Shown here: positions 6,412-58,260 of the stretch, piece by piece | Layout: every line of letters begins with the position of its first letter | How positions within the stretch are numbered: position 1 is the first letter of the stretch | Source of the DNA: an uncultured Actinomycetales bacterium | GTDB taxonomy: Bacteria > Actinomycetota > Actinomycetes > S36-B12 | Assembly: GCA_913063435.1 (NCBI GenBank) | Contig: CAJXYI010000002.1 | Location: forward strand, 1 to 64,000 | Length of the DNA stretch: 64,000 bases | Direction of reading: 5' to 3' | Position numbers and translations under genes: made by a program | The notes under the pieces: model-generated | Databases searched by the model: none | Told to the model about the DNA's origin: nothing | What the model saw: only the letters and a program-made list of their open reading frames with translations

Positions 6412-7593
6412 ATGACGTCCGATACGTGGAACACTCCGCAGCGCCAAGATCTGCGCAAACTCGTCACCGACTTCACCACCCGATCCATTACGCCGTACCT
6501 GCCTGACTGGGAGCGGCAGGAGCAACTCCCTCGCGAACTGCACCAGCAGGCTGCGGAACTCGGACTACTCGGACTCGGCTTTCCCGAGTCCTTGGGCGGT
6601 AGCGGTGGGGACTTCCTCGACGTCGTGGTAATGACCGAGGCGATGCTCGAAGCAGGTGCCAGCGGTGGTGTGATCTCGGCGCTGTTCACCCATGGAATCA
6701 GCCTGCCCCACGTGATCGATGAGCATGACCGACGCGAAGCCGCAGGCGATCCCGAAGGAGCTCGCTACCTCGCCGAGACCGTGATCCGACCTGTTCTGGC
6801 CGGGGAGATGATCAGTTCACTCGCAGTGACCGAACCCGATGGCGGTTCCGACGTCGCTCGCCTACGCACCAGCGCCACGCGCGTCGACGATGGATGGCGG
6901 GTCAATGGTGCCAAGACCTTCATCACCTCAGGTGTCCGCGCCGATCGCGTGGTGACCGCTGTACGCACCCCCGAGGCCGGGGACGGAGCAGCCGGCATCA
7001 CCTTGATGCTGCTCGATCCACAATCCCCCGGATACGCGACACCGCGGGCGCTGGAGAAGATGGGCTGGTGGTGTTCAGACACCGCGGAACTGTCCTTTAC
7101 TGATGTCCCGGTCATCGATCGAGATGTGCTCGGACTCGGGGAGGGATTCGGTTCGCTCGCTCGGCACTTCGTCTCCGAACGACTCTCGATCGCAGTCACG
7201 GCCTACGCGACCGCGCAGCGAAGTCTCGATCTCGCAGTCGCCTGGGCCCGTGACCGCGAGACATTCGGCCGCCCGCTCATCACCCGGCAGACGATTCGAC
7301 ATCTTCTGGTTGACATGTATCGACGCACCGACGTGGCTCGCACCTACACCCGCAGTGTCGCGCAGCGATACGCCGCGGGTGAGAACCTCGTCGTCGAGGC
7401 TGCGTTGGCCAAGCAGACCGCGGTGGAGACCGCGGAATTCGTCGTCGATCGAGCAGTGCAGATCCACGGAGGCATGGGATACATGCGCGAGGTCGAAATC
7501 GAACGGCACTACCGGGATGTGCGGGTGCTCGGCATCGGCGGTGGAGCGACCGAGGTGATGACCGATCTCGCAGCCCGCCTCCTCGGTTACTAA
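6412..7593 (+). CDS. Acyl-CoA dehydrogenase
   Basis: AVTEPDGGSDVARLRTSATR, QIHGGMGYMREVEIERHYRDVR. Confidence 0.93.
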   Translation: MTSDTWNTPQRQDLRKLVTDFTTRSITPYLPDWERQEQLPRELHQQAAELGLLGLGFPESLGGSGGDFLDVVVMTEAMLEAGASGGVISALFTHGISLPHVIDEHDRREAAGDPEGARYLAETVIRPVLAGEMISSLAVTEPDGGSDVARLRTSATRVDDGWRVNGAKTFITSGVRADRVVTAVRTPEAGDGAAGITLMLLDPQSPGYATPRALEKMGWWCSDTAELSFTDVPVIDRDVLGLGEGFGSLARHFVSERLSIAVTAYATAQRSLDLAVAWARDRETFGRPLITRQTIRHLLVDMYRRTDVARTYTRSVAQRYAAGENLVVEAALAKQTAVETAEFVVDRAVQIHGGMGYMREVEIERHYRDVRVLGIGGGATEVMTDLAARLLGY

Positions 7594-7607
7594 CCCCAAC
7601 TCCGAAC

Positions 7608-7680
7608 GGATGCGTCTGAGTTACCTGAATGGTCGCTAACTCGGGCAGTTAGCGACCATTCAGGTAACTCAGACGCATCC
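7608..7680. repeat. Perfect long palindrome (34-bp arms, 5-nt loop), copy 1 of a dispersed element
   Basis: GGATGCGTCTGAGTTACCTGAATGGTCGCTAACT-CGGGC-exact reverse complement. Confidence 0.95.
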
Positions 7681-7698
7681 TTGGCTGGGGCGCGGGGG

Positions 7699-8688
7699 TC
7701 AGCCGGTGCGGTCGACGACGTAGTCACACAGCGCTGACAGCGCATCCGTTGCCGGACCCGGTGGCAGATGCGCCAATTCCCCGCGGGCCCGATCCGCCCA
7801 CGCCCTGGCCTCATGACGTGCAGCAGTGATCGCCGGGTGTCCCCTCAGACGATTCAGCACCAGGGCATGTTCGCCATCGTCGTCGATTGGCCCGATCAAT
7901 GCTGCGTTCAACACGTCATCGTCACCATCGCGCAGTGCCATCAGCGCAGCGAGGGTAGGTACCCCCTCGCGCAGGTCGGTTCCCGGCGTCTTGCCGGATT
8001 GATCCGAGTCGCTGGTGATGTCCACGAGATCATCGGCTAGCTGGAAGGCGACGCCGATCTGCTCACCGAACCGGGTGAGGGTGTCCACCACCGGTTCCGA
8101 TGCACCCGAGAGCATCGCCCCGAATCGACATGACGTGGCGATCAGGGAGCCGGTCTTGTCGGCCAGAACCTGCAGATGATGAGTCACCGGGTCATCACCA
8201 TCGACCGGTCCCACGGTTTCGCGAATCTGCCCGGTGCACAGTCGCTCGAAGGTCCGGGCTTGGATTCGGACTGCCTCCGGGCCGAGATCGGCGAGGATGT
8301 CCGAGGCTCGAGCAAAGAGGAAATCGCCGGTCAAGATCGCAACCGTGTTGTCCCAGCGAGCGTTGGCCGACCGGGCACCTCGCCGCAGATCCGCCTCATC
8401 CATGACATCGTCGTGGTAGAGGGTCGCTAGGTGGGTCAGTTCGACGACCACCGCGGAAGGGACGACTCCCACTGCCTCCGGGTCGCCGTATCGTGCTGCC
8501 AGCAGCACCAGGAGCGGCCGGAACCTCTTGCCACCGGCATCGACGAGGTGTCGTGACGCCTCGGTGACGAAGGGATATTCGCTGCGGACTGAATCCCGCA
8601 GGAGCTTCTCGACCTGCTCCATGTCACGACGCAGATCCTCCGCGAGCATGCCATCGATGCCGAGACCGGCCAGGCTCGCGTAGTTCAC
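7699..8688 (-). CDS. Polyprenyl diphosphate synthase (menaquinone side chain type)
   Basis: LYHDDVMDEADLRRG and FQLADDLVDITSD aspartate-rich motifs. Confidence 0.92.
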   Translation of the reverse strand: MNYASLAGLGIDGMLAEDLRRDMEQVEKLLRDSVRSEYPFVTEASRHLVDAGGKRFRPLLVLLAARYGDPEAVGVVPSAVVVELTHLATLYHDDVMDEADLRRGARSANARWDNTVAILTGDFLFARASDILADLGPEAVRIQARTFERLCTGQIRETVGPVDGDDPVTHHLQVLADKTGSLIATSCRFGAMLSGASEPVVDTLTRFGEQIGVAFQLADDLVDITSDSDQSGKTPGTDLREGVPTLAALMALRDGDDDVLNAALIGPIDDDGEHALVLNRLRGHPAITAARHEARAWADRARGELAHLPPGPATDALSALCDYVVDRTG

Positions 8689-55973: not shown

Positions 55974-56747
55974 GTGGTGGCAGAAGTTCCCCTCGATATT
56001 CCCCGGGCCTGGGTCGAGTTCGATGATCCCGATGATGCCGATCAGCGTTACCGCTGCGACCTCACCTGGCTGACATCCCGCTACCAGTGCATCTTCGGTC
56101 GGGGGTGCAAGGGCATCGACGCCGATCGACCCGATGCCGGCTGCTGCACCTTCGGCGCCCACTTCGCCGACCGCGAAGACGAGGAGCGGGTGCTGGGCTG
56201 GGCGAAGAAGTTGACCAAGGAGATGTGGCAGAACCGATCGATTGCCAAGCGTGACGGCATCGTGGTCAAAGCGGGAAAGAAGGAGCGGGCGACCCGGGTC
56301 GTGGACGGTGCCTGCATCTTCCACAACTCACCCGATTTCCCCGGCGGCTACGGCTGCGCCCTGCATCACCTCGCCGAGGCAGAAGGCGTGTCCTTCGTCG
56401 AGACCAAGCCCGAGGTGTGCTGGCAGGTGCCCATGCGCCGGGCGTACGAGACCGAGGAACTTCCCGACGGGACCGAGCGAGACGTCGTGATCATCACCGA
56501 GTACGACCGGCGTGCCTGGGGCGCGGGTGGTCACGACCTCGACTGGTACTGCAGCGGCAACCCGGAAGCGCATACCGCCGCGGAACCGGTCTATCTGACC
56601 CATCGGGATGAGCTGGTCGCACTCATGGGCGAGGCCGCCTACGAGGTTCTGGTGGGTTACTGCGAGGCGCGTGAACGACTGCTGGCCGATGTTCTCGACC
56701 GCGGCGATCGCGAGGCACTGCTGATCCATCCCGCCGACCCCGACTAA
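55974..56747 (+). CDS. Conserved Cys-rich protein, resembles YkgJ/DUF3109-type metal-binding families
   Basis: [48 protein letters not shown] cysteine pattern. Confidence 0.65.
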
Positions 56748-56761
56748 CCCCTCCCCCAGCA

Positions 56762-56828
56762 GCCGTCTGAGTTACCTGAGTGGTCGCTAACTCGATGAGT
56801 TAGCGACCACTCAGGTAACTCAGACGGC
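56762..56828. repeat. Perfect long palindrome (32-bp arms, 3-nt loop), copy 2 of the dispersed element
   Basis: GCCGTCTGAGTTACCTGAGTGGTCGCTAACTC-GAT-exact reverse complement. Confidence 0.95.
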
Positions 56829-56859
56829 GCTGTCGGGGGGATCGCCTAGTCTCGGCGTC

Positions 56860-58260
56860 ATGGCCAAAACATCAGCGTCCTACGCGTGCTCCTCGTGCGG
56901 GGCCACACACCTGCGCTGGGTAGGTCGCTGTTCGAAGTGCGGCGAATTCGGCACCGTCGCCGAATCGGCGATGACATCGCGGGCGCCGGGAGTCCGGTCG
57001 AAGGGGACCGCCCCGACACGCACCGCGCGACCGATCGGCGAGGCTTCCGCGCAGCGAACCTACCGGCGACCCACCGGAGTCGGTGAATTCGATCGCGTCC
57101 TCGGCGGCGGTCTCGTGCCTGGCCAGGTCGTGCTCGTCGCCGGCGAGCCCGGCGTCGGCAAATCCACCCTCCTTCTTGCCGTGGCGCACGCCGTGGCAGA
57201 ACAGGGCGGTTCGGGAACCTTGGCGGGGACTCCGGTTCTGTATGTCACCGGCGAGGAATCCGCCGAGCAGGTCGGCATCCGGGCTCAACGCATCGGCGCC
57301 ATGAGCGAGTCGCTGCTGGTCGCAGACGAAACCGACATCCAAGCCGTCCTCGGGCACATTCGCGAACACCGCCCGCGACTGATCGTCATCGACTCGGTGC
57401 AGACCATGGCCTCACCGGAGGTGGAGGGGCGCCCCGGAGGTGTGGCTCAGGTACTCGAGGTCACTCAGGCTCTCACCCGTTCGGCGAAGGAACGCGGTGT
57501 CCCCCTGTTGCTCGTGGGACAGTCCACCCGCGAGAACACCGTCGCCGGCCCTCGCGCACTCGAGCACCTCGTCGACACGGTGCTCACCTTCGAAGGTGAT
57601 CGGGCCAGTGCCCTACGCCTACTGCGGGCATCCAAGAACCGGTATGGACCCGCCGATGAAGTCGCCGCCTTCGAGCAGACCGAGGACGGACTTCGCCAGG
57701 TTGTCGACCCCTCCGAACTGTTCCGCGGCCATCGCGATGTCCCGGTGCCCGGAACCTGTGTCGCCGTCACGATGGAAGGCCGGCGCGCCCTCCTCAACGA
57801 GGTCCAAGCCCTTGTAGCGACCACCACGACCGGGCGGCGCACCGTCACCGGTTTGGATCCAGCCCGTGTGACGATGCTGGCGGCGGTGATCGATCGCATC
57901 AGCGAGAAGAAGATCGATTCCCACGATCTCTTCGTTGCCACGGTCGGCGGGGCCCGCATCATCGATCCAGCCGCCGACCTTGCCGTCTGTCTGGCGATCG
58001 CATCGGCCTTGCGCAACGTCGCCGTCCCCGCGCATGTTCTGGCGATCGGTGAGGTCGCGCTTTCCGGAGACATCCGACCCGTGCAGCACCTGCAGGCTCG
58101 GGTCAACGAAGCACGCCGCCTGGGATTCACCCGGATCCTGGTGCCCATCGGTTCTCGATCCCGGTTGGATTCCGGCCCTTCCCAGGAGGTCGTGACCGAA
58201 CTCGATCACATCAACCTGGCACTGGGCTCCCTCGACCGCATCGCGACCCAGGGCTACTGA
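56860..58260 (+). CDS. radA: DNA repair protein RadA
   Basis: Zn finger YACSSCGATHLRWVGRCSKCGEFG; Walker A GEPGVGKSTLL; KNRYG motif. Confidence 0.97.
   Translation: MAKTSASYACSSCGATHLRWVGRCSKCGEFGTVAESAMTSRAPGVRSKGTAPTRTARPIGEASAQRTYRRPTGVGEFDRVLGGGLVPGQVVLVAGEPGVGKSTLLLAVAHAVAEQGGSGTLAGTPVLYVTGEESAEQVGIRAQRIGAMSESLLVADETDIQAVLGHIREHRPRLIVIDSVQTMASPEVEGRPGGVAQVLEVTQALTRSAKERGVPLLLVGQSTRENTVAGPRALEHLVDTVLTFEGDRASALRLLRASKNRYGPADEVAAFEQTEDGLRQVVDPSELFRGHRDVPVPGTCVAVTMEGRRALLNEVQALVATTTTGRRTVTGLDPARVTMLAAVIDRISEKKIDSHDLFVATVGGARIIDPAADLAVCLAIASALRNVAVPAHVLAIGEVALSGDIRPVQHLQARVNEARRLGFTRILVPIGSRSRLDSGPSQEVVTELDHINLALGSLDRIATQGY

Follow-up and report, generated by a model that had tools for sequence, protein, structure and literature searches.

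What is a palindrome with perfectly paired arms of 34 nt doing between two convergent bacterial genes? The palindrome in question occupies positions 7608–7680 of the window, by which we mean the whole 64,000-nt stretch of DNA analysed here. An inverted-repeat scan of the window resolved it into arms at 7608–7641 and 7647–7680, 34 nt each and 100% complementary around a 5-nt loop, and returned a second palindrome with 32-nt arms at 56762–56793 and 56797–56828, also 100% complementary, around a loop of 3 nt. These two, hereafter copy 1 and copy 2, are the sole inverted repeats of such kind in the window, the others listed being ordinary imperfect palindromes. A 29-mer occurred four times in the window, where shuffles predicted 0.00, and the intergenic stretch of copy 1, taken as RNA, folded with a z of −13 to −15 relative to shuffles. 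Pfam confirmed the convergent neighbours of copy 1 named in a sequence-only reading of the window: an acyl-CoA dehydrogenase gene on the (+) strand (6412–7593; PF00441, PF02771 and PF02770), whose stop lies 19 nt ahead of copy 1, and a polyprenyl synthetase gene on the (−) strand (7699–8688; PF00348), whose stop lies 23 nt past it. Copy 2 follows, by 16 nt, the stop of a (+) strand gene without a Pfam match (55974–56747), and 33 nt past it starts a co-oriented gene for a RadA-like AAA protein, as assigned by Pfam (56860–58260, (+) strand). The same reading had reported the perfect 34-bp arms, a near-identical copy at 56762–56828 and the absence of a T-tract on both strands, and our scans agree with it on all three, as no terminator-like site or T-tract was found within 7400–7900 on either strand. 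An Rfam scan of the whole window at the gathering score yielded a single tRNA and no match to the palindrome.

The repeated unit is the inner 63 bp of copy 1 (7613–7675), as delimited by a consensus of 36 copies and by an alignment, with arms at 7613–7642 and 7646–7675 and a loop at 7643–7645. We designated this unit family A; it has the form CGTCTGAGTTACCTGAATGGTCGCTAACTC-NNN-reverse complement, with a loop of 3 nt. The GGATG/CATCC pairs that lengthen copy 1 (7608–7612 with 7676–7680) belong to its local C/G-flank region and are absent from other copies. In copy 2 the core spans 56764–56826 (arms 56764–56793 and 56797–56826) and carries the G/C variant at arm position 17. Throughout the genome that holds the window (the own genome, G000; a 2.52-Mb draft assembly of 100 contigs), the outer 13-mer marks 49 places, and the inner 25-mer gave 46+46 matches against 0 for the reversed control. 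About one third of the places lie at contig ends, which duplicate some of the 49 (the starts of C6 and C8 are one copy counted twice), so distinct copies number at least ~40. All are intergenic with one apparent exception, at L069:8237, where the called ORF containing the copy is probably a miscall. The share of copies at contig ends, and the C6/C8 copy seen from two contigs, are features that an artefact of metagenome-bin assembly might leave, a reading that we consider scarcely credible: most copies sit inside contigs with unique flanks, and the family recurs in an independent MAG (JAGYOB, G001), at shared sites and with a consensus peculiar to that genome. Instead of two copies only and none in sister genomes, there are thus 49 places in the genome and a related family in the nearest sister genome, which upholds the earlier proposal of a dispersed family over that of a chance hairpin. 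Both carriers are draft MAGs, the own genome 94% and G001 87% complete. Our reading of the own genome took in approximately 0.8 Mb picked around copies, and copy density is not to be extrapolated from this sample; gene calls around copies came from a simple ORF/GC3 script.

Copies differ from one another far more than their own arms do. The two arms of a copy differed on average by 0.18 of 27 nt and arms of different copies by 1.38, and 0 of 2000 permutations were as low. Among 22 sequences from both species, 10 pairs had changed on both sides, and doubly changed cells numbered 43 against 11.3 in shuffles, falling to 1–8 once the register was slid. Few copies are hybrids that combine arms from two subtypes (L057). 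A fold-back intermediate in the making of each new copy, or template switching during replication that equalises the arms, would be expected to yield perfect arms with symmetric changes. The outer 12 nt are identical across all own-genome copies, the variable arm positions there being 14–17, 24 and 28–30, and the blocks CGTC, AGTTAC and TGGTCG are strictly invariant in both species. Invariant outer nucleotides beside variable inner positions would be expected if an enzyme recognises the ends.

The palindrome is accompanied by borders of opposite composition. At copy 1 these are a C-rich left tract at 7594–7612 and a G-rich right tract at 7676–7698, and at copy 2 they lie at 56748–56763 and 56827–56842, all read on the (+) strand. 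Over the own genome the left 40 nt were C-rich and the right 40 nt G-rich at 34 of 35 on each side (mean skew +0.52/−0.50), independently of the orientation of neighbouring genes, and the G001 copies showed a skew of +0.57/−0.66. Intergenic DNA of the own genome without the element is balanced (skew ~0), and the skew at empty orthologous sites is only +0.08/−0.11, the C/G tracts in G001 being absent together with the element. An extended outer stem was rejected as the origin of the borders, each pairing with its own partner no better than with those of other copies (permutation 0.83); because pairing within a copy is non-specific, the borders are best described as a compositional signature of insertion or of its aftermath. 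Pre-existing C-run/G-run mini-hairpins were also rejected as general targets, with C4..G4 occurring 9 times and G4..C4 19 times in element-free intergenic DNA, and a few empty G001 sites (orthologues of L049, L055, L058 and L063) do hold a small C..G hairpin. This C-rich left, G-rich right signature was not seen in the cited work.

Family A has a narrow distribution. A tolerant pattern placed it in the own genome and G001 only, among 86 genomes of the bacterium's family; with this pattern it was essentially absent from the other 84, where one lone two-mismatch match, in G033, is likely due to chance. Among 85,462 species genomes, a collection that may lack the own genome's records, the sole match was the Candidatus Nanopelagicales MAG JAGYOB, that is, G001. 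Neither phage nor plasmid records contained a match, and on this ground we rejected a phage or plasmid origin. Some 400 kb of G002 and G010 contained ordinary small hairpins only, and other intergenic hairpins in relatives were ordinary too, some with T-tracts. A literature search on Nanopelagicales palindromes found nothing relevant. 

Comparison with relatives revealed empty counterparts of filled sites. At the copy 1 locus the stop codons overlap in both G001 and G002 (CTACTAGCCGG), indicating that ~105 bp were gained in the own genome, borders included (7594–7698), and both the C-rich and the G-rich tract are missing with the element there. In G001 the element is lacking at fifteen sites where the own genome has it, namely this locus and 14 others. 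Other sites are shared but have decayed in G001: the one orthologous to copy 2, at radA, retains a short palindrome with an internal deletion, CCGTCTTAGGTAACTAAGACGG, and the G001 orthologues of L042, L043, L051, L054 and probably L032 hold half arms or remnants. Full-length elements occupy both genomes at three shared sites, L061:10592, L061:11831 and L056:9237. No target-site duplication was readable, because the flanks change too quickly between G000 and G001. As a separate observation, the G010 position upstream of the polyprenyl synthetase gene that is orthologous to window copy 1 (L141:317–380) bears an imperfect palindrome, GAGTGTGCACTT...AAGTGCACACTC, with a G-rich tract behind it; this palindrome is single and unrepeated in the 220 kb of G010 read.

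In G001, a sister Nanopelagicales MAG, the family A consensus is shifted. Arm position 6 is T/A in the G001 copy at 8/8 readable shared sites and G/C in every full-length own copy, and positions 15 and 24 are likewise shifted between the genomes in full-length shared copies. The same symmetric substitution at all eight readable shared sites means that a copy resembles the others of its genome more closely than its orthologue in the other genome, a pattern of concerted evolution. That the T type is the older is suggested by the only such relic in the own genome, a decayed one (L034:14323). Simple insertion and decay do not predict concerted change of this sort, which requires gene conversion, renewed insertion at identical places as an alternative to conversion, or selection. 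On a rival reading, the palindrome would be bound by a protein that organises the chromosome or regulates genes, and a shift in the specificity of this protein between the two species would have changed all sites together. In its favour are the replacement of G by T at position 6, with its partner, at every readable shared site and the strict invariance of the three blocks in both species. We nevertheless find a protein site very unlikely, since sites are freely gained and lost (15 being empty in G001), perfect arms of 30 bp around a 3-nt spacer far exceed the usual dyad operators, and changes within the variable blocks, too, are perfectly paired, although binding by a protein would not call for this.

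The genes around the element bear on whether it serves transcript ends. Where both neighbours were called (25 copies), nine pairs were convergent, nine tandem and seven divergent, and several divergent pairs were verified by Pfam (uvrA/MBL, dnaK/Fe-S protein and tetrapyrrole methylase/PMT). Convergent sites are modestly enriched, about twofold (p about 0.02–0.05), and many copies sit 10–35 nt past stop codons. This placement, together with the very stable RNA hairpin and with C-rich sequence upstream and G-rich sequence downstream on both strands, would suit a functional bidirectional terminator or 3'-end RNA stabiliser in which C-rich, Rho-loading-like RNA precedes a stable hairpin and selection homogenises the copies. 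We judge this reading unlikely. Intrinsic terminators are GC-rich hairpins followed by a U-tract, and family A has none; the 7/25 copies between divergent genes, where no transcript ends, carry the same C/G borders, so that the family is not confined to the 3' ends of transcription units and shows only a modest convergent excess. Moreover, the orthologous gene pairs of G001 and the 84 other family genomes manage without the element, and selection for RNA stability needs no invariant outer 12-mers. Actinobacteria do have U-less, 'I-shaped' terminators, strong hairpins after a stop codon with no U-tract, which family A resembles past stop codons; it differs from them in being a sequence-specific dispersed family with invariant ends that lies also between divergent promoters. 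With about one quarter of its copies between divergent genes, a dedicated 3'-end or terminator role fails to explain family A, and some copies may have such a role as a side effect. Among the alternatives that the sequence-only reading had offered, a REP/REPIN- or MITE-like element fits the behaviour best, and a specialised 3'-end RNA element is weakened by the divergent copies.

Taken together, the expansion in copy number, the empty sites, the invariant ends and the relics form the trace expected of a non-autonomous mobile element, and we conclude, with a probability of roughly 0.6, that the palindrome belongs to a family of short, non-autonomous, REPIN/MITE-like mobile elements. On this model, the 63-bp fold-back unit would insert into intergenic DNA together with its C-rich left and G-rich right border, and an enzyme acting in trans on the invariant ends (CGTCTGAGTTAC...), presumably transposase-like, would copy the unit into new sites. 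New copies would arise perfect if one arm templates the other in the hairpin, or the arms might be re-equalised by replication template switching, an arm-equalising process of which arm covariation is a known signature (PMC8794818). Effects on the host, such as those of the highly stable hairpin that transcribed copies would place at the 3' ends of mRNAs, would then be side effects and not the reason for the family. Several points weigh against this model, among them the concerted change at shared sites, the modest convergent excess and the incompleteness of both MAGs. In addition, a search for a Y1/IS200-IS605/RAYT protein (PF01797) gave no match in G000, G001, G002, G003 or G010, with controls matched and the own genome 94% complete, and no gene flanked by family A arms was present in the own-genome assembly, which is incomplete.

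Family A resembles several known classes of repeat, and we assign it to none of them. REPINs are REP doublets that form hairpins (Bertels and Rainey 2011, PMC3116915). Like them, family A has a short centre enclosed by two inverted end blocks of high conservation, spreads extragenically as one dispersed hairpin and shows symmetric, compensatory changes inside that hairpin; in addition, each half holds the inverted motif GAGTTA...TAACTC, which would allow a two-hairpin 'clover' form. Unlike REPINs, it has an unpaired centre of only 3 nt, a whole arm that is perfectly paired, C-rich/G-rich borders and no GTAG-type tag, and the cognate RAYT (Y1 HUH transposase) of a REPIN genome was not found, for which reason we do not claim REPIN membership. 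CGTC-tagged REPs form a superfamily reported to lack a dedicated transposase, some REP-superfamily members lying within a second, outer palindrome (Di Nocera et al. 2013, PMC3733652); they consist of an unpaired tag, a stem of 8–9 bp, a loop of 4–5 nt and a CCA-like tail, and none is reported in Actinobacteria (PMC3733652). Family A likewise ends in CGTC and forms an inverted doublet, and no dedicated transposase was found for it, but its CGTC is paired and its consensus has no such stem, loop or tail. To MITEs such as RUP, NEMIS/Correia, YPAL and Nezha it is linked by short, non-coding, palindromic intergenic insertions in many near-identical copies, with RNA hairpins possible, and by presence/absence polymorphism at orthologous sites. 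It departs from them in that the incomplete assembly yielded no complete insertion sequence related to it, that a target duplication could not be read from its flanks, and that the 3-nt loop is its sole non-terminal sequence. Family A is thus a new lineage-specific REPIN/MITE-like palindrome family with unusual borders, for which we claim membership of no known family.

SbcCD is a hairpin-cutting nuclease, and its distribution raises an alternative to a mobile element. SbcD and a convincing SbcC are absent from G000, G001, G003, G006, G007, G012 and G039, a third of the 21 relatives examined; both palindrome carriers are among these, and G002, G010 and more keep both proteins. Conceivably no transposase is involved, and replication fold-back or template switching with ectopic gene conversion made the palindromes, which are tolerated since SbcCD is missing. 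The perfect arm covariation is the known signature of template switching (PMC8794818), the SbcCD-bearing G002 and G010 show no such palindromes, and two unrelated palindrome families (see below) share an identical two-genome distribution. Even so, we hold this explanation to be distinctly unlikely, because template switching alone cannot put an identical 63-bp sequence at 40 unrelated sites and the SbcD-less G003, G006, G007, G012 and G039 showed no palindrome family in the 120–245 kb sampled from each. These five relatives lead us to reject SbcCD loss as a sufficient cause; it is at most permissive.

The second palindrome family, which we designated family B, is unrelated to family A in sequence. 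It has the form CCACYGCYAAGACGACCCTAASTTGCRCC-loop-reverse complement, about 72 bp long with a ~12-nt loop, and numbers roughly 15 copies in the own genome, about three in G001 and none in the 84 other family genomes. Copies lie at L055:392-462, L063:7916-7987, L066:6768-6841, L066:19185-19262, L036:3490-3545, L040:7936-7992 and L042:12325-12380. The arms of family B are also perfect and vary symmetrically, and this, with the same phyletic range, hints that the two families may share a common activity in the two carrier genomes. A more specific scenario, which we regard as possible though doubtful, is that these are a lineage-specific class of mobile perfect palindromes with a non-HUH mover, C/G borders laid at insertion and species-wide homogenisation of both arms, and that the same machinery drives family B. 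Other repeats were noted along the way. A third dispersed motif, GCCCGAATCGGGCGTGATCTACCCGAAGAAGGGCTAG-like, occurs at L066:8217, L067:564, L067:1531 and L070:13490, and a repeated motif that resembles it loosely, CAGGGCTACCCGCAACAGGG, is present in G002; the GCCCGAATCGGGCGTGATCTACCCGAAGAAGGGCTAG-like motif is possibly a genus-wide REP-like repeat. A tandem repeat of ACCGCTCAGCGGTCGTACCCACGAG (25 bp, five copies, with a partly palindromic unit) occupies L044:970-1086, and a 15-bp tandem repeat, CCAGTAAGACCCAGA, lies at L047:9569-9630, either at the start of a dnaK-like gene or immediately ahead of it, the called ORF there probably starting too far upstream.

Small bacterial palindromic repeats are usually explained by RAYT transposases or as relics of insertion sequences. 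Family A is young and active-looking, and neither a RAYT nor an insertion sequence was found for it; it shows species-wide concerted change at orthologous sites and a border signature absent from the cited work. With clean empty sites in sister genomes, the spread and the arm perfection of RAYT-less palindromes become directly testable.
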